IMG/VR virus record: IMGVR_UViG_3300013102_000021
Location: 1 to 40,134 of that record
DNA from: a virus
Direction: 5' to 3' (one strand)
Length of the DNA: 40,134 bases
Under the pieces are notes generated by a model that searched no databases, was not told the DNA's origin, and was given only the letters and a program-made list of their open reading frames with translations. This document shows, piece after piece, positions 1 to 40,134 of this stretch; position 1 is the stretch's first letter; each line of letters starts with the position of its first letter. The position numbers were made by a program, and so were the translations under genes.

Positions 1-123
1 AGGGCCTACATCGTGGGTAATACCACGAAGGCGCCAACCACTGTACACGCCGAAGGCCGCCCACGTCTCGTCCAGGACAACCTCGACATCGCGGGTCAGC
101 TGATGCCAAGGGCCGTCTTCAGC
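1..123. repeat. Terminal direct repeat, left copy
   Basis: Bases 1-123 are identical to 40012-40134. The repeat lies inside the Panacea antitoxin reading frame, which continues without a break when the ends are joined. It is therefore more likely the overlap of a circular (or circularly permuted) assembly than a physical terminal repeat. The unique circle would be 40,011 bp. Confidence 0.95.
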
Positions 124-378
124 GAGGTCCATATGGATCGGCTCAGATCCGAATTCACTGCACTCGCGGTAGAGCGGGGCGATCACCGGTCCGTGCTTCC
201 AGGCTGAAAACTCTTCCTTGACGAGCGACTTTCCCGAGAAGTGCAGGTAACGACTCTGAGCGAGATAAAGAAGCTTCTGAAGCTTTAGGTTGTCGAGGTC
301 ATGATCCGGCGACTGCTGTGCACGAGCGATAAACCACTTCGCGACTAGCGATGCGGCAAGAGGCGGCGCGTAACTCAC
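1..378 (-). CDS. Panacea (DUF4065/SocA-like) antitoxin, N-terminal part; gene continues at 40011
   Basis: First 126 codons of a 211-aa protein split by the linear cut: the frame runs from 378 down to 1, which equals 40012, and on to 39754. The GTG start at 378 has a strong AGGAGG 4 nt upstream (383-388). The Panacea core is visible: LDNLKLQKLLYLAQ at residues about 28-41, EEFSAWKHGPVIAPLY at 55-70, and SGWRLRGIT at about 113-121. Panacea-domain proteins neutralise many unrelated toxins (RelA/SpoT-type, mRNA interferases, Fic and others) in two-gene operons. The next gene is a PemK/MazF-like protein joined by a 4-bp overlap, so a toxin-antitoxin pair is the natural reading. The family call is strong; the neutralising role is inferred from family and context. 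Confidence 0.85.
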   Translation of the reverse strand, partial: MSYAPPLAASLVAKWFIARAQQSPDHDLDNLKLQKLLYLAQSRYLHFSGKSLVKEEFSAWKHGPVIAPLYRECSEFGSEPIHMDLAEDGPWHQLTRDVEVVLDETWAAFGVYSGWRLRGITHDVGP

Positions 379-391
379 GGCTCCTCCTAGC

Positions 392-422
392 TTCTCCACA
401 GGTTATACACGTGGTTATCCAC
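392..422. promoter_or_regulatory. Three DnaA-box-like repeats upstream of the toxin-antitoxin operon
   Basis: TTCTCCACA (392-400), TTATACACG (403-411) and TTATCCACA (414-422) lie head to tail with 11-bp periodicity. The last is a perfect DnaA box consensus. They occupy the region immediately upstream of the AGGAGG/GTG start at 378 and of the divergent gene at 454-505. They could be DnaA sites or an operator with a similar half-site; an AT-rich stretch (431-446) follows. Confidence 0.5.
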
Positions 423-1084: not shown

Positions 1085-1273
1085 ATGGTCGACGACGGTG
1101 TCCGAATCGCGATCGTCCGGCAGCTGCAGATCGGCCCGAACAAGGAAACCATGCACCGGGTCGTGACCTACGCGGAGCGGTCGGAGGACCGAGCGTTGGT
1201 CGGCTACTTCCCGCACCTCCAGATGGCGGTCGAGATCACCTGGCGCGAATACCTGAAGGCGAAGCGGCGCTAG
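1085..1273 (+). CDS. Hypothetical protein, 62 aa
   Basis: A small soluble protein I do not recognise as a named family. It reads as genuine coding sequence: regular amphipathic pattern (VRIAIVRQLQIG, then HRVVTYAERSEDRALVGYFPHLQMAVEITW), high third-position GC and a basic C terminus (KAKRR). The ATG start lacks a visible Shine-Dalgarno sequence. It is convergent with the 85-aa gene of the alarmone synthetase pair, with a bidirectional terminator between them. Confidence 0.55.
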   Translation: MVDDGVRIAIVRQLQIGPNKETMHRVVTYAERSEDRALVGYFPHLQMAVEITWREYLKAKRR

Positions 1274-1357: not shown

Positions 1358-1615
1358 TCAGGCGTGACTTAGCATCAGCTCAGCAAACAGCGGGTTGCTC
1401 TCTGAGCGGAAGTAGTGCCCGTGGGTCTTCATGATGGTCTGAATGCTGTCAGATCCAATGAGAACAATCTCATAGTCCTCGCTGGACATATGCGCTCGTT
1501 CGGCCTCGGCGTAGGCGCTCGTAGCTTTCGTTGAGTCTCTAAACTCATCCTGCTGCACGAGTCGCTGGTCTTTGTGGCTGTAAACGAGAAGGAAGTGGAC
1601 CGTTGCGGCTGCCAT
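1358..1615 (-). CDS. 85-aa partner protein of the RelA/SpoT-like synthetase
   Basis: Small protein of mixed hydrophobic and acidic composition: MAAATVHFLLVYSHKDQRLV at the N terminus suggests a beta strand, a central AYAEAERAH helix, then EIVLIGSDSIQTIMKTHGHYF. The name and fold are unknown to me. It starts 2 nt after the stop of the synthetase gene, and its AGGAGGAG ribosome site lies inside the last codons (Arg-Arg-Arg) of that gene, so the two are translationally linked. It could be an antitoxin, an activator that senses infection, or an unrelated passenger. A bidirectional terminator follows it, making this a self-contained two-gene operon. Confidence 0.7.
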   Translation of the reverse strand: MAAATVHFLLVYSHKDQRLVQQDEFRDSTKATSAYAEAERAHMSSEDYEIVLIGSDSIQTIMKTHGHYFRSESNPLFAELMLSHA

Positions 1616-1617
1616 TT

Positions 1618-2355
1618 CTATGCTCTCCTCCTGCTGTAGTAGCCCTCTTTAATTACTCGATCCGTCGCGTCATTGAGACGAGAGCGAAGTGTGTCGGGGA
1701 GGGCGAGTCCGTACTCCTGATGATAGATCACATCGCCAGCAGCATTGAAGTACTCAAGCATACTCTCTGGGCCAATACCATCCTTCAGAGTGAGATTGTG
1801 CGCGGAGTCAGCAGATTCAATCGCGTTTGCCCATGACTGCTGTCCCTGCGTGCGTAGTTGCACCTCAATGCGACGAACCCCTCGCTCGACTGTCAGATGG
1901 AAGGCACGGTACCCCATTCCGTTGGGGTCTGTGACATAGTCCCTCCGTCGCACGATGTTGTTGCCCCACGTTTTCTCAACATGACTACGGACGCGCCCGA
2001 GCGCTTGTGCATCATCGAGGACGGCGCGGCAGCCTCCGATGTCTTCAAGTCTCGCCAAATTCGTCTTCTCCATTCGGGCCAACTTCCGAATGATGCGCGG
2101 AACGCGTTTCAGTCGCTGCGAAACCAGAGGAGCTCCACTCGTTTCACTACTGACGATCTGACGAAGCCCTACTGTGACGCTCCCAAGCGGTCGCTGATGC
2201 GCGGCACGGAATGCACTGATCACCGCATAGGCCTCGGCGAACCTCTCGTCGTCATACCAGTCGACCGGATACTCGCGCCGATGGCCATCAGCCAAGTATT
2301 CACCGCACCTATTGATATGCCCCTTGCTCGGCAGGACGATTGCAGTAGCCGCCAT
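1618..2355 (-). CDS. RelA/SpoT-type small alarmone synthetase
   Basis: A 245-aa protein with one RelA/SpoT synthetase domain, residues about 78-195, and no hydrolase or C-terminal regulatory domains. Landmarks of the family are present: RLK at 81-83 (ATP-binding R and K), LEDIGGCRAV with D105 (metal ligand), NGMGYRAFH with Y149 and H153 (G loop), and IEVQLRTQGQQSWA with E164, Q166 and W175. Catalysis looks intact; the product could be (p)ppGpp, (pp)pApp or pyrophosphorylated tRNA as in toxSAS enzymes. Related prophage-encoded proteins block superinfecting phages (family knowledge). ATG 2355 was chosen because TAAGGT ends exactly 7 nt upstream and a strong terminator lies within any longer frame. 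The gene is visibly more A/T-rich than the structural genes, consistent with recent acquisition. Confidence 0.85.
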   Translation of the reverse strand: MAATAIVLPSKGHINRCGEYLADGHRREYPVDWYDDERFAEAYAVISAFRAAHQRPLGSVTVGLRQIVSSETSGAPLVSQRLKRVPRIIRKLARMEKTNLARLEDIGGCRAVLDDAQALGRVRSHVEKTWGNNIVRRRDYVTDPNGMGYRAFHLTVERGVRRIEVQLRTQGQQSWANAIESADSAHNLTLKDGIGPESMLEYFNAAGDVIYHQEYGLALPDTLRSRLNDATDRVIKEGYYSRRRA

Positions 2356-2362
2356 GGGAGCG

Positions 2363-2397
2363 ACCTTACAGTATGTGCCACGGTGCCTAGCTGGCAC
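2363..2397 (-). promoter_or_regulatory. Leaderless promoter with operator dyad for the alarmone synthetase operon
   Basis: On the minus strand TAAGGT (plus 2363-2368) lies 7 nt before the ATG at 2355. Upstream, GTGCCTAGCTGGCAC (2383-2397) is a perfect 5-5-5 dyad overlapping the expected -35, and a third GTGCC half-site is at 2375-2379. This is a layout for tight repression; the regulator is not identified. Confidence 0.5.
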
Positions 2398-2412: not shown

Positions 2413-2450
2413 AACGCCCCCTCTCAACCCGAGGGTCAAGAGGGGGCGTT
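2413..2450. terminator. Strong terminator at the end of the late operon
   Basis: AACGCCCCCTCT (2413-2424) pairs perfectly with AGAGGGGGCGTT (2439-2450), with ACCC/GGGT extending inward. It lies 84 bp beyond the last late gene (2534), between the lysis cassette and the accessory island, and may serve both directions. Confidence 0.8.
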
Positions 2451-15316: not shown

Positions 15317-15342
15317 GACGGCCTCCTTCGCGTGTCGGTAAG

Positions 15343-15410
15343 TGGACGGGGCTGGAATCGAACCAGCGACCAGGGCGCGACCCTGAGCTCTGCCATTGAG
15401 CTACCTGCCC
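15343..15410 (-). tRNA. tRNA-Ala(CGC)-like sequence, compact
   Basis: A 68-nt minus-strand sequence folds as a tRNA: acceptor GGGCAGG/CCCGTCC (one A-C mismatch), D arm GCTC/GAGC, T arm GCTGG-TTCGATT-CCAGC, and unpaired A73. The anticodon arm TCAGG-GTCGCGC-CCTGG reads CGC with U33. The third acceptor pair is G-U, the alanine identity element, matching an Ala anticodon. The base before the anticodon arm and part of the variable loop are missing, and no CCA is encoded. It lies in the 143-bp gap between two related head genes on the same strand, so it would be co-transcribed with late mRNA. It may be functional, degenerate or an RNA processing signal. Confidence 0.6.
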
Positions 15411-27186: not shown

Positions 27187-27416
27187 GATGCACCCCTGCA
27201 TCCCGAGCAGAGGCGGCGCTTTTCCCAGCCCTGCCCGCCCCTCGTGTTGAACTTGATCCCGCACGTGAGGATCAGCAGGTTCAAGTTCGCCCCGGTAGCA
27301 ACCAGCCCGCATCCGTCGCACTGAACCCTCGGCGGCTCGAGCGACACAATGCCGTGCACCTTGCCAGGGAGGTCCGGGAACGGAACCAAGACGCGATCCA
27401 GCGTGATGGCGGTCAT
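27183..27416 (-). CDS. Zinc-binding protein, 77 aa
   Basis: Contains VQCDGCGLVATGANLNLLILTCGIKFNTRGGQGWEKRRLCSGCRG, with CxxC pairs at about residues 33-36 and 70-73 and a central Cys. A single zinc-binding domain of unknown role, coupled by ATGA overlap to the methyltransferase gene upstream. Confidence 0.55.
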   Translation of the reverse strand: MTAITLDRVLVPFPDLPGKVHGIVSLEPPRVQCDGCGLVATGANLNLLILTCGIKFNTRGGQGWEKRRLCSGCRGAS

Positions 27417-29152
27417 GCTGCCACCCGCTCGAGGTCGACGCCATTGAGCGCTTCCGCTACTGCCATGCCGAGGTCGCGAGCGGCCGGCGGGGTGACCGCG
27501 TTCCCAGCTTGCTTGACCTGCTCGCGCTTGGTCCCGCCGAGGTAGTAGTCGCGGGCGAATGCCATGCCGACCTTGATCTCGTCGGGGGTGAGCATCCGGA
27601 ACAGGACGTCGTCGACGTCGAGGCTGATCTCGGACTCCACCAGGCCGTACCTGTCACCAGTCGTTAGCGTGCCGTGCGGCTCGTCCGTGGGCTTCGCCGT
27701 CAGCGATGCCGAGTAGTACGGCACTAGCAGCGACTGGTGGCCGGCCGTGGTGAGCGTGCGCAGCTCCTCGGTGACCGGGGTGCTCATCTCAGCGCCGCCT
27801 TCGTTGTTCCGCATGACGAGGGCGTGATGGTTGCCCTCCGCCGAGACGGTGTCGATCGTCCGGGTGACGGGCTTCGCGACGCCGTGATTCCGGAGCGGGA
27901 TGACGAGCGCCGTCTCGTTGCGCGTCGACTGCGTGCGGAGCGGTCCGGTGACGGATGCCGCGCTCTTGCCCTCGCGACCCTCGACGGGGACGAGCAGCGG
28001 CGCGTAGGCGAGGCCCTTGGTCTGCGCCGTCGTCTGCGTGAGCATCGGATCGTTGGCCGACTGCACCGTGCCGCCGCCGTGGATGCCGTCCGTGATCAGC
28101 GGCGGGACAGCGACGCCGTACTCTGCCGTGCCGTTCTGCGTGCGCAGCGCCTCGTCCGTCGGCCAAGCGCGCAGATACGTGCCGGGCTTGCCCGATGCGG
28201 AGTCGTACGTGTTCCCGGCCGCGGCGACGACGAGAGGCTTCCAGTAGCGCTCGATGCCCTTCTGGATCCGCGCGCGGGTCTTGTCGGCCAGCGGCTTCTT
28301 CTTGTCGCCGATGCGTTCGCCCGGGATGGACCAGTCGATCGCGCTCGACGCCGGGAGCCAGGCGGGCTCGACGATCGCGTTGCGGCACTCCACCCGAGGG
28401 CAGCGGTAGACGTACTGCGCACGGTAGCGGCCCCAGCGTTCGTCCTTCTTGAACGCCTGCACCGCCTGCACGATGCCGTGCATCTCGCAGAACGCCTGCG
28501 GGCGGGTCCACTTCGCCAGGTTCGGCTTCCGCTCACCCTTCCGCCAGAACACCACGTACATGCGGTCGCGGGACTGCGGGGCCGGGAGACCGAACGCCTG
28601 AGCGTGCATGCTGTTCAGCCACACCTGCTCGTGCGCGTAACCGAGGAGCTCCATCGTCATCAGCCACGCCGGGAACGGCACCCACTTCGCAGCGTCGACG
28701 ACGTTCTCGATGATGATTGCCCGATAGCGGTGGTGCTCCGCGAACCGGGGCACATCCCACATCGTGGCGCGGGACCTGTTCGCGGCCTCGTCCGGGAGCG
28801 GCTGGGTGCCGTCGACCTCGAACAGCATCGCGTCTTCCGCGCGCTGCCGCTTCACACCCTTCGCCACCGAATGATTGGTGCACTCCGGCGACGCCCACAG
28901 GATGTCCGTGCGGGGGAAGTAGCCGGGGTTCACCTGCGAGATGTCCGCGTTCGAGTGGTCCGTCTCCGGGTGGTTGATCTGGTGCGACTCGATCGCCTGC
29001 GTCCAATGATTCGCCGCGATGACGATCTTGAACCCTGCGGCCGCGAGGCCCGAGGAGGATCCACCCGCCCCGCAAAACAGGTCCGTGACCGTGAGTCCGT
29101 TCCATGCGATGTCGGCTTGCTGGTAGCCGACGCGCTCCATCACGGCGCTCAT
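27413..29152 (-). CDS. DNA (cytosine-5) methyltransferase
   Basis: A 579-aa enzyme. Motif I DLFCGAGGSSSG (24-35), motif IV ASPECTNHS with the catalytic Cys at 91 (Pro-Glu-Cys instead of the usual Pro-Pro-Cys), motif VI IIIENVV with E149-N150-V151, and the C-terminal motif X QAGNAVTPPAARDL. The long central section has repeated P-x-x-T-L-T/T-x-x-x-x-A-L segments, likely the target-recognition region. No restriction nuclease is adjacent, so it is an orphan methylase that may protect phage DNA from host restriction or modulate expression. Confidence 0.88.
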   Translation of the reverse strand: MSAVMERVGYQQADIAWNGLTVTDLFCGAGGSSSGLAAAGFKIVIAANHWTQAIESHQINHPETDHSNADISQVNPGYFPRTDILWASPECTNHSVAKGVKRQRAEDAMLFEVDGTQPLPDEAANRSRATMWDVPRFAEHHRYRAIIIENVVDAAKWVPFPAWLMTMELLGYAHEQVWLNSMHAQAFGLPAPQSRDRMYVVFWRKGERKPNLAKWTRPQAFCEMHGIVQAVQAFKKDERWGRYRAQYVYRCPRVECRNAIVEPAWLPASSAIDWSIPGERIGDKKKPLADKTRARIQKGIERYWKPLVVAAAGNTYDSASGKPGTYLRAWPTDEALRTQNGTAEYGVAVPPLITDGIHGGGTVQSANDPMLTQTTAQTKGLAYAPLLVPVEGREGKSAASVTGPLRTQSTRNETALVIPLRNHGVAKPVTRTIDTVSAEGNHHALVMRNNEGGAEMSTPVTEELRTLTTAGHQSLLVPYYSASLTAKPTDEPHGTLTTGDRYGLVESEISLDVDDVLFRMLTPDEIKVGMAFARDYYLGGTKREQVKQAGNAVTPPAARDLGMAVAEALNGVDLERVAA

Positions 29153-35850: not shown

Positions 35851-36216
35851 ATGCCCCACAGGTACGACCCATTCGCCCACGCCGACGCGCTCGGCATCAC
35901 CGTCCGTTTCGGCCGGCTTCGTACCGCGAACGGACTCTGGCTGCCTGACCACCGCTCCATCATCATCAAGGAAGGGATGCGCGCCGTGCACACACGTGTT
36001 GCGCTCACGCACGAGATCGGACACGCCGACCTCGGCCACGAGGACGACCGCCCGAAGCACGAGCGGCAAGCTGACCGGTATGCCGCCCGCCGGCTCGTCG
36101 ACCCTGTCCGCTTCCGCGAGCTCGCGACCTGGACGAGCGACTCGTATCGCATCGCGCACGAACTCGGCGTCACTCAGCGCATCCTCGCCGCCTACGTGCA
36201 GGGGTGCCGAGCATGA
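35851..36216 (+). CDS. ImmA/IrrE-like metallo-endopeptidase
   Basis: A 121-aa protein with the zinc motif HEIGH at 54-58 (LTHEIGHADLGH) and the third ligand region KHERQADRYAARRL (E71). Preceding strands (GLWLPDHRSIIIKEGM) match the family. These proteases cleave HTH repressors of mobile elements on damage or quorum signals. Placed between the repressor (2-bp gap) and integrase (ATGA overlap), it forms a lysogeny operon. Confidence 0.88.
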   Translation: MPHRYDPFAHADALGITVRFGRLRTANGLWLPDHRSIIIKEGMRAVHTRVALTHEIGHADLGHEDDRPKHERQADRYAARRLVDPVRFRELATWTSDSYRIAHELGVTQRILAAYVQGCRA

Positions 36217-37400
36217 GGGCCGCGAAGGGCGAAGGTTCCGTCATGAAGACCGCGACCGGCTACCGCGGCTACGTAACCATCGACGGGAAACGCAAGTACA
36301 CGTCCGTCTTCAAGACGAAGGCCCTCGCGTCGCAGGCGAAGCGAGAGCTGCTTGCGCGCAAGGACGACGGCCGCCTGGTCGCCGGCAAGGTGCCGTCCGT
36401 GGAGCAGTGGATGAATCACTGGCTCGACAACGTCGCCAAGCACCGGCCCACGACCTACGCGACCAATAAGTGGGTGGTCGACAAGAAGATCGTCCCCGAG
36501 CTTGGCACGATCAAGCTCCCGTCGGTCACTGCCGAGCGACTCGAGCAGTGGGTGGCTGACCTCGGCGTCGCCCCGTCGAGTCAGCGTCGCTACCTCGCCC
36601 CGCTCCGCGCCGCGCTCAACGTGGCATTCAAGCGTGGCCACATCCCGTTCAACCCTGCGGACCGCGTCGAGCTCGAAGCGAAGGGCAAGCCCAACACGAC
36701 CTCATTCTCCCGGGAGGACCGCGACGCCATCCTTGCTGCCGCCACTGGTTACAACAGCGCGCGCTGGCACCTCGCATTGCGAATCGGGCTCCGGCCCGCC
36801 GAGGCGCTCGGCCTGACCTGGCAGAACTTCAACGCGAAGACCGGCACACTCTCGGTCACACACCAGCTGCTCTATGCCAAAGGCAAGGGTCTGTACCACC
36901 AGCCGGAGCCGAAGACGGAAGCGGGGGAGCGGGTCATCCAGCTACCCAAGTCGCTGGTGCAGCTCCTCGTCGAGCAACGGCGCACGCAGATGCAGATGAT
37001 GGCAGAGCAGGGCGACGAGTGGAAGGGCTGGGAGTACGCGGGCGCCCCAGTCGCGCTGATGTTCACGCAGGACAACGGCCGTCCGATTCAAGCGCGCATG
37101 GACACCGCCCGATGGAAGGCCCTGCTCGAGCGGGCGGGTCTCGCCGCGACCAAGCGCTACCAGTCCAGGCACACTGCGGCATCGCATCTTCTCGTAGAGA
37201 GCGGTGGCGATGTCGCGGTCGTCGCGGACACTCTCGGCCACGCCGACTCAGGCTTCACGTACCGCACCTACGTACACCCGCTGGAGGAGCGAAAGCGGGC
37301 ACTCGCCGAGAAGATGGACGCGCCCTCTGCACCTTATGCTGCACCCTATGATGCTTCCGACGCTGAACGTGGGCGAACAGTCGAGGCCGGAAATCGCTGA
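36213..37400 (+). CDS. int: Tyrosine integrase
   Basis: A 395-aa recombinase. An N-terminal arm-binding domain (about 5-60, GEGSVMKTATGYRGYVTIDGKRK), a core-binding SAM-like domain (about 63-150) and a catalytic domain (about 165-365): R194 in GLRPAEALGL, K234, R319 in YQSRHTAASHLL (the usual HxxR His is Tyr316), H343 in LGHADSG, and the nucleophile Y353 in RTYVHP. The C-terminal tail is encoded by the left arm-site repeat. ATG 36213 overlaps the protease stop; GTG 36204 is possible. It should integrate the phage at a tRNA-Thr gene. Confidence 0.92.
   Translation: MRAAKGEGSVMKTATGYRGYVTIDGKRKYTSVFKTKALASQAKRELLARKDDGRLVAGKVPSVEQWMNHWLDNVAKHRPTTYATNKWVVDKKIVPELGTIKLPSVTAERLEQWVADLGVAPSSQRRYLAPLRAALNVAFKRGHIPFNPADRVELEAKGKPNTTSFSREDRDAILAAATGYNSARWHLALRIGLRPAEALGLTWQNFNAKTGTLSVTHQLLYAKGKGLYHQPEPKTEAGERVIQLPKSLVQLLVEQRRTQMQMMAEQGDEWKGWEYAGAPVALMFTQDNGRPIQARMDTARWKALLERAGLAATKRYQSRHTAASHLLVESGGDVAVVADTLGHADSGFTYRTYVHPLEERKRALAEKMDAPSAPYAAPYDASDAERGRTVEAGNR
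37327..37350. repeat. Left arm-type integrase sites (two 12-mers)
   Basis: CTGCACCTTATG and CTGCACCCTATG in direct tandem, inside the 3' end of int. The same pair occurs at 37547-37570 on the other side of attP, in the same orientation, with one difference overall: the layout of P-arm sites for lambda/L5-type integrases. Confidence 0.7.
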
Positions 37401-39382: not shown

Positions 39383-39757
39383 CTAGACGAGTCCGCAATA
39401 TCGGAGGTGCCCGAGAACGACCTTCTCCATTTCATTTGCTGGCAGCTGGCCGATTCTCTCCAAAATGTGGCGCTTCGCGATGGGCTGTAGGAGCGGGACC
39501 TGGACTGCGCATCGCTTTGGCAGATTCGCCACTCCGGCAGCCAGGAAGACGTCGTACTCCGTCACAACCACGTCCGAGGTTGAGAGCGGGAAGCCCTGAA
39601 CGATGGGCCATGAATCCTCCGCGTTGCGCTCGTCGAGCGACAAGACGAGGAAAGGTCGACGACTGTGCATTTTACGCTTGGCGCGCGTAGTGGGCGGCAG
39701 TTCAACGGCATCATCGTGAATCCAATACACCGCACCGCGTCGGATCGGTACGTTCAT
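39383..39757 (-). CDS. PemK/MazF-like toxin
   Basis: A 124-aa protein with the PemK/MazF pattern: VPIRRGAVYWIHDDAV (first strand and G), SRRPFLVLSLDERN, WPIVQGFPLSTS, then KRCAVQVPLLQPIAKRHILERIGQLPANEMEKVVLGHL. The family cuts mRNA at short sequences or acts on other RNAs. The gene overlaps the Panacea antitoxin stop by 4 bp, so antitoxin is translated first. The middle (DVFLAAGVANLPKR) differs from classical MazF, so an inactive or altered specificity is possible. Confidence 0.8.
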   Translation of the reverse strand: MNVPIRRGAVYWIHDDAVELPPTTRAKRKMHSRRPFLVLSLDERNAEDSWPIVQGFPLSTSDVVVTEYDVFLAAGVANLPKRCAVQVPLLQPIAKRHILERIGQLPANEMEKVVLGHLRYCGLV

Positions 39758-40134
39758 GGAAGCAGCGAATTCGCCTCTTTGCGTAGAGATTCCGTCCTAG
39801 CGAGTTCGTTCTCCAATAGGGAGGGATCGCCCATCCGTGTACCGAGCGGTGTCTCAATTGCCAAGAGACGGAACCTCTCAAGAGCATCTTCAATGACATT
39901 GCGCGCCACTGCGGGCTCAGCCTCAAACTTCGAGAACTCCGACCATGCGTCGCCAATTGCATCGCGAGGAATGACAATGTTCTTCACATGCTCAACGAAC
40001 ACTTCAGACCAAGGGCCTACATCGTGGGTAATACCACGAAGGCGCCAACCACTGTACACGCCGAAGGCCGCCCACGTCTCGTCCAGGACAACCTCGACAT
40101 CGCGGGTCAGCTGATGCCAAGGGCCGTCTTCAGC
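39754..40134 (-). CDS. Panacea antitoxin, C-terminal part; gene begins at 378 across the circular junction
   Basis: In-frame continuation of the gene that starts at 378; 40012-40134 duplicates 1-123. The segment ends the Panacea domain (SGWRLRGIT, then a PW pair) and adds a roughly 80-residue, helix-rich, charged C-terminal tail not needed for the core fold. In this family such extensions can carry toxin-specific contacts (family knowledge; not tested here). The stop at 39754-39756 overlaps the ATG of the toxin gene at 39757 in an ATGA arrangement, implying translational coupling. A linear annotation of this contig would report only a 101-aa fragment here and miss the antitoxin. Confidence 0.85.
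   Translation of the reverse strand, partial: AEDGPWHQLTRDVEVVLDETWAAFGVYSGWRLRGITHDVGPWSEVFVEHVKNIVIPRDAIGDAWSEFSKFEAEPAVARNVIEDALERFRLLAIETPLGTRMGDPSLLENELARTESLRKEANSLLP
40012..40134. repeat. Terminal direct repeat, right copy
   Basis: Exact second copy of bases 1-123, in the same orientation. Together with the intact reading frame across the join it shows that this contig closes on itself. Confidence 0.95.

Follow-up and report, generated by a model that had tools for sequence, protein, structure and literature searches.

A split CapRel-type toxSAS toxin–antitoxin pair predicted on a temperate actinobacteriophage

Toxic small alarmone synthetases (toxSAS) of the CapRel type occur both fused to their antitoxin and as two-gene systems. 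In Actinobacteria CapRel is usually unfused (PMC9712102), as in CapRel/ATcapRel of M. tuberculosis AB308 and M. terramassiliense, and inhibition of split CapRel takes place at the pyrophosphate-donor site (PMC11782079). Pyrophosphorylation of the tRNA 3'-end has been described for AB308 CapRel as well as for PhRel of the Mycobacterium phage Phrann (PMC12691689), and both the Phrann gp29/gp30 pair and the fused CapRel-SJ46 of Salmonella phage SJ46 exclude superinfecting phages (PMC9712102, PMC11559606). In fused CapRel an anchor is used in sensing Gp54 (PMC11578894). The IMG/VR virus record IMGVR_UViG_3300013102_000021, analysed here over its entire 40,134 nucleotides (the window), carries close to its beginning a gene pair that, with a probability of about 0.88, represents a split (two-gene) CapRel-type toxSAS toxin–antitoxin system on a temperate actinobacteriophage. 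This reading is based on gene anatomy, on family membership by sequence, fold and phylogeny, on co-occurrence of the two genes and on conserved catalytic and interface residues. The genes and their junction are arranged as follows.

1618-2355, minus strand: predicted CapRel-type toxSAS toxin (split, unfused), 245 aa, ATG start, one RelA/SpoT synthetase domain.
1358-1615, minus strand: predicted ATcapRel antitoxin, a stand-alone pseudo-zinc-finger domain of 85 aa, with HGHYF (H65-Y68) at the position of the YXXY neutralisation motif.
1616-1640, minus strand: ribosome site AGGAGGAG of the antitoxin gene, within the last codons of the toxin gene (junction sequence).

The synthetase matches Pfam RelA_SpoT (PF04607, E 4e-17) and contains neither hydrolase nor regulatory domains. 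As the original prediction had stated, it is a single-domain enzyme in which R81, K83, D105, Y149, H153, E164 and Q166 are all kept, and these residues are invariant across seven aligned relatives. Coordinates and junction sequence likewise confirm the proposed two-gene operon with the ribosome site of the partner inside the synthetase gene. Toxin stop and antitoxin start are separated by 2 nt in two separate frames, so that the locus does not correspond to the fused CapRel form, and because of this short gap and the position of the ribosome site translational coupling is likely.

Several comparisons place the synthetase next to CapRel. It matches positions 7-221 of the 349-position PADLOC profile PDC-S33 (E 3e-48), and CapRel-SJ46 is its top PDB profile match with 115 bits, the next synthetase being of RelP/RelQ type with 55 bits. 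Alignment of the synthetase to the CapRel-SJ46 toxin by hhalign gives E 2e-24, and the predicted fold is also closest to CapRel-SJ46 (template modelling (TM) score 0.8 versus about 0.55 for RelQ/RelP). Residues R81, R110 and Y149 of the phage enzyme are the counterparts of R79, R116 and Y155 in CapRel-SJ46 (PDB codes 7ztb and 9erv). In a first tree the synthetase groups with CapRel, PhRel and fused forms, separated from actinobacterial small alarmone synthetases (SAS) and long Rel by a 96/96 split, which places it on the toxSAS side and leads to rejection of a housekeeping SAS of RelP/RelQ type. In a second tree, Phrann gp29 falls in a PhRel clade (98/95) set apart from the CapRel side; the synthetase lies on the latter, among split systems that form a supported group (99/97), while support for the CapRel-side grouping as a whole is moderate (89/83). 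Membership in the PhRel/ATphRel family is thus rejected as well.

These trees also bear on the possibility that the phage acquired a housekeeping small alarmone synthetase that modulates host growth through (p)ppGpp and is allosterically regulated by the partner. Although the intact catalytic residues would suit such an enzyme, its position among the toxSAS and its obligate partner, which is homologous to a known antitoxin domain, make this explanation extremely improbable.

The partner had been regarded as a member of an undescribed family, which is not borne out. Positions 265-330 of PDC-S33 match the 85-residue protein (E 1e-6), and in phrog_4773 the N-terminal part matches the synthetase and positions 276-337 the partner. 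Since both profiles match the two proteins in the fused order, synthetase and partner each correspond to one half of a fused family. Furthermore, hhalign aligns the partner to Phrann gp30 (ATphRel) with E 2e-6. In the alignment to the C-terminus of CapRel-SJ46, HGHYF falls under YPNYF, the antitoxin motifs thus occupying the same position, and V51/L52 fall on the interface residues V338/L339. By these sequence comparisons the partner is most probably a stand-alone CapRel pseudo-zinc-finger antitoxin (ATcapRel/ATphRel). Its family is not new, since antitoxins of this kind are already known from the unfused CapRel systems of Actinobacteria and from Phrann (gp30).

The identity of the partner is relevant to a further alternative, namely a (pp)pApp-making toxSAS pair of the FaRel/Tas1-like kind, in which the free enzyme would drain ATP and leave tRNA unmodified. 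The toxSYNTH fold is common to both kinds of enzyme. However, the synthetase groups with CapRel in the trees. In the literature a lone antitoxin of pseudo-zinc-finger domain (pZFD) type accompanies tRNA-modifying, donor-site toxSAS, and Tis1-like domains serve to neutralise the (pp)pApp makers (PMC11782079); we therefore regard ATP depletion as very unlikely.

Some observations weigh against a split CapRel system. The direct similarity between the partner and the CapRel-SJ46 C-terminus is weak (hhalign E 0.047). The partner is predicted to fold as beta-beta-alpha-beta-alpha, and a Foldseek search with this model (predicted local distance difference test (pLDDT) 77) returned nothing significant, ATfaRel2 (8pu3_B) being found at TM 0.51-0.54 with E 2.0 and CapRel at E about 1. 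The first tyrosine of YXXY is a histidine in the partner, and the C-terminal domain of AT2faRel without YXXY has also lost neutralisation (PMC11782079). Finally, the role of the pair may be regulatory only, or one of addiction as in plasmids. The histidine itself is shared with Phrann gp30, which has HSRY at this place and yet is a described antitoxin. No match to the partner was found among PDB sequences, nor among phage records when it was used alone as the query.

The same contrast of HXXY and YXXY recurs among the relatives: of the 23 split systems compared, 22 have HXXY, against none of eight fused ones. The sole exception among the split systems is the locus L061 (1501-2357), the antitoxin of which has YPHYF. 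As the tree shows only two architecture changes, a link between motif and architecture cannot be separated from ancestry, and HXXY was not upheld as a tracker of the split form. The contrast nevertheless yields a concrete, testable prediction on the neutralisation lock. One could speculate that the split form of Actinobacteria, with an HXXY lock of its own and no anchor helices of the kind by which fused CapRel senses phage, may have an antitoxin that serves as a detachable sensor for phage triggers of another class, perhaps in concert with the neighbouring PanA–PemK pair described below, but we consider this proposal doubtful.

Co-occurrence of the two genes is pronounced. The synthetase lies directly upstream of the partner in all seven related loci compared first, and in 396 actinobacterial genomes the partner follows directly downstream in each of the six strong unfused PDC-S33 matches, the other four strong matches being fused. 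In a second sample of 395 genomes a synthetase is again found beside most partner matches. The pairing is conserved far beyond chance and, together with the trees, lends good support to the earlier proposal of a toxSAS-type toxin–antitoxin operon borne by a prophage; the combination of housekeeping SAS ancestry and missing co-occurrence, which would have spoken against it, is excluded. One relative was obtained when viral contigs were scanned with the synthetase. Relatives on viral contigs comprise L002, beside an integrase and a repressor, and L011; others are found in Nocardioides (L008, beside an integrase), Mycobacterium, Actinoplanes and an actinobacterial metagenome-assembled genome. Natural fused forms are also present in actinobacterial genomes (L016-L019, L056-L058).

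Some of the loci deviate from the intact pair. At the Actinoplanes locus (L004, 5215-5971) gene order is kept and the antitoxin is intact though the toxin is broken into two reading frames, either by decay or by a sequencing error. Lone partner-like antitoxins with HXXYF and no synthetase detected nearby are found at L049 (1468-2028), L051 (1414-1734, adjoining a ParDE-like pair), L054 (3-479) and L068 (1498-1740), and may be orphan antitoxins or partners to another toxin. In Escherichia phage vB_EcoM-673R5 (L013, 1456-2555) a CapRel-like gene is annotated in two frames, a 185-aa match and a second piece, and is apparently broken.

Compared with the described systems, the locus resembles the unfused CapRel/ATcapRel pairs of M. 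tuberculosis AB308 and M. terramassiliense in its two-gene form, while the copy studied here is borne by a temperate phage. CapRel-SJ46 is a single polypeptide of 373 residues with anchor helices and YPNYF, whereas the phage pair comprises 245 and 85 residues with HGHYF; judged from these lengths, the split form appears to be without the anchor of fused CapRel. Phrann PhRel/ATphRel likewise comes from a temperate phage, with the toxin followed by a small antitoxin (HSRYF) near the lysis genes, but its toxin belongs to the separate clade described above. FaRel2/ATfaRel2 (PDB code 8pu3) is a tRNA-targeting toxSAS with a small pZFD-like antitoxin, which is circularly permuted, contains YXXY and gave no significant sequence match to the partner. 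Since published work covers inhibition of split CapRel, action on tRNA and phage defence, the pair is not a new kind of system; it is a new phage-borne copy of the known two-gene CapRel form and is already expected from published surveys. The defence members studied in this family are for the most part either fused (SJ46) or of PhRel type (Phrann), and with this locus the family gains a two-gene CapRel carried by a phage.

By analogy to these systems, a lysogen would produce both proteins from one transcript, and toxin and antitoxin would bind each other. As in CapRel and FaRel2, the antitoxin would dock on the enzyme and keep it silent, its HGHYF segment lying between R81 and R110 in the ATP (pyrophosphate-donor) site. 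Upon infection by another phage the enzyme might be freed, either through a product of that phage or because the unstable antitoxin is lost, and, by analogy to AB308 CapRel, Phrann PhRel and CapRel-SJ46, it would transfer pyrophosphate from ATP onto the 3'-CCA end of tRNA, so that translation would stop and the infection abort. The trigger may differ from that of the fused form, because the anchor used for Gp54 sensing appears to be missing. As a compact system, the pair lends itself to studies of triggering in split toxSAS.

The surrounding genome is that of a temperate tailed phage, as indicated by genes for an endolysin, tape measure, head, portal and terminase proteins together with an integrase (36204-37400), an ImmA-like protease and an antirepressor. 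Positions 1-123 are exactly repeated at 40012-40134, and by this terminal direct repeat the record closes to a complete circle of 40,011 bases. On the circle the toxin–antitoxin pair is placed between the lysis genes and the integrase. Its GC content of 56%, compared to 66% for the bulk of the phage, is essentially the lowest of any 1-kb stretch of the window, and in combination with the flanking hairpins (1302-1344 and 2413-2450) this suggests a moron-like insertion. The sequence is best read as a type II toxin–antitoxin system, moron-like and borne by a prophage, and GC content and relatives point to an actinobacterial host. The circular junction is crossed by a further toxin–antitoxin pair, PanA–PemK, about 1 kb away from the synthetase pair.

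39754-40134 joined to 1-399, minus strand: 218-aa antitoxin with Panacea/SocA domain (PF13274, E 9e-16), crossing the circular junction.
39383-39757, minus strand: PemK/MazF-like toxin (PF02452, E 3e-9), overlapping the PanA antitoxin gene by 4 nt.

An integrase-bearing temperate phage with two such pairs side by side is also what would be expected if the synthetase pair mainly stabilised the prophage by addiction instead of serving defence, and the phage trigger of the pair remains only hypothetical. On the other hand, superinfection exclusion is described for both phage-borne relatives that have been studied, namely Phrann gp29/gp30 and CapRel-SJ46 (PMC9712102, PMC11559606). A mainly stabilising role is unlikely but retains appreciable weight, and as addiction and defence are compatible both can hold for a split CapRel system.

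The unit is flanked by inverted repeats.

2374-2398, no strand assigned: dyad TGTGCCA-N11-TGGCACA (7-11-7), encompassing GTGCC-AGCTA-GGCAC and located 19-43 nt upstream of the toxin start; possible operator.
1302-1344, no strand assigned: 15-bp inverted repeat (-28 kcal/mol) 3' of the antitoxin gene; possible bidirectional terminator.
2413-2450, minus strand: 18-bp hairpin (-37 kcal/mol) dividing the pair from the upstream genes.

The 5-5-5 dyad GTGCC-AGCTA-GGCAC, originally taken as the operator within the promoter, is present upstream of the toxin, but shuffling the 56-nt leader yields 5-nt-arm dyads of such kind in 23% of cases, and no consensus promoter was found for the unit. The larger 7-11-7 dyad performs better (3.3% of leader shuffles). 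Neither was found upstream of related loci, where the dyads differ; an operator shared with relatives was consequently rejected, and the assignment of 2374-2398 as an operator is suggestive only. Of the terminator proposed to close the unit, the 15-bp hairpin is present; the repeat has no T run, however, and was not called by the terminator scan. A convergent small gene (1085-1273, plus strand) would share this possible terminator. On the opposite side, the hairpin at 2413-2450 is probably the terminator of the lysis operon, insulating the toxin–antitoxin unit.

Elsewhere in the window, a 579-aa DNA methyltransferase (27413-29152, minus strand) matches cytosine-methyltransferase families, and ARAGORN calls a tRNA-Ala (cgc) at 15342-15410 (minus strand) within the structural genes, which may be spurious.
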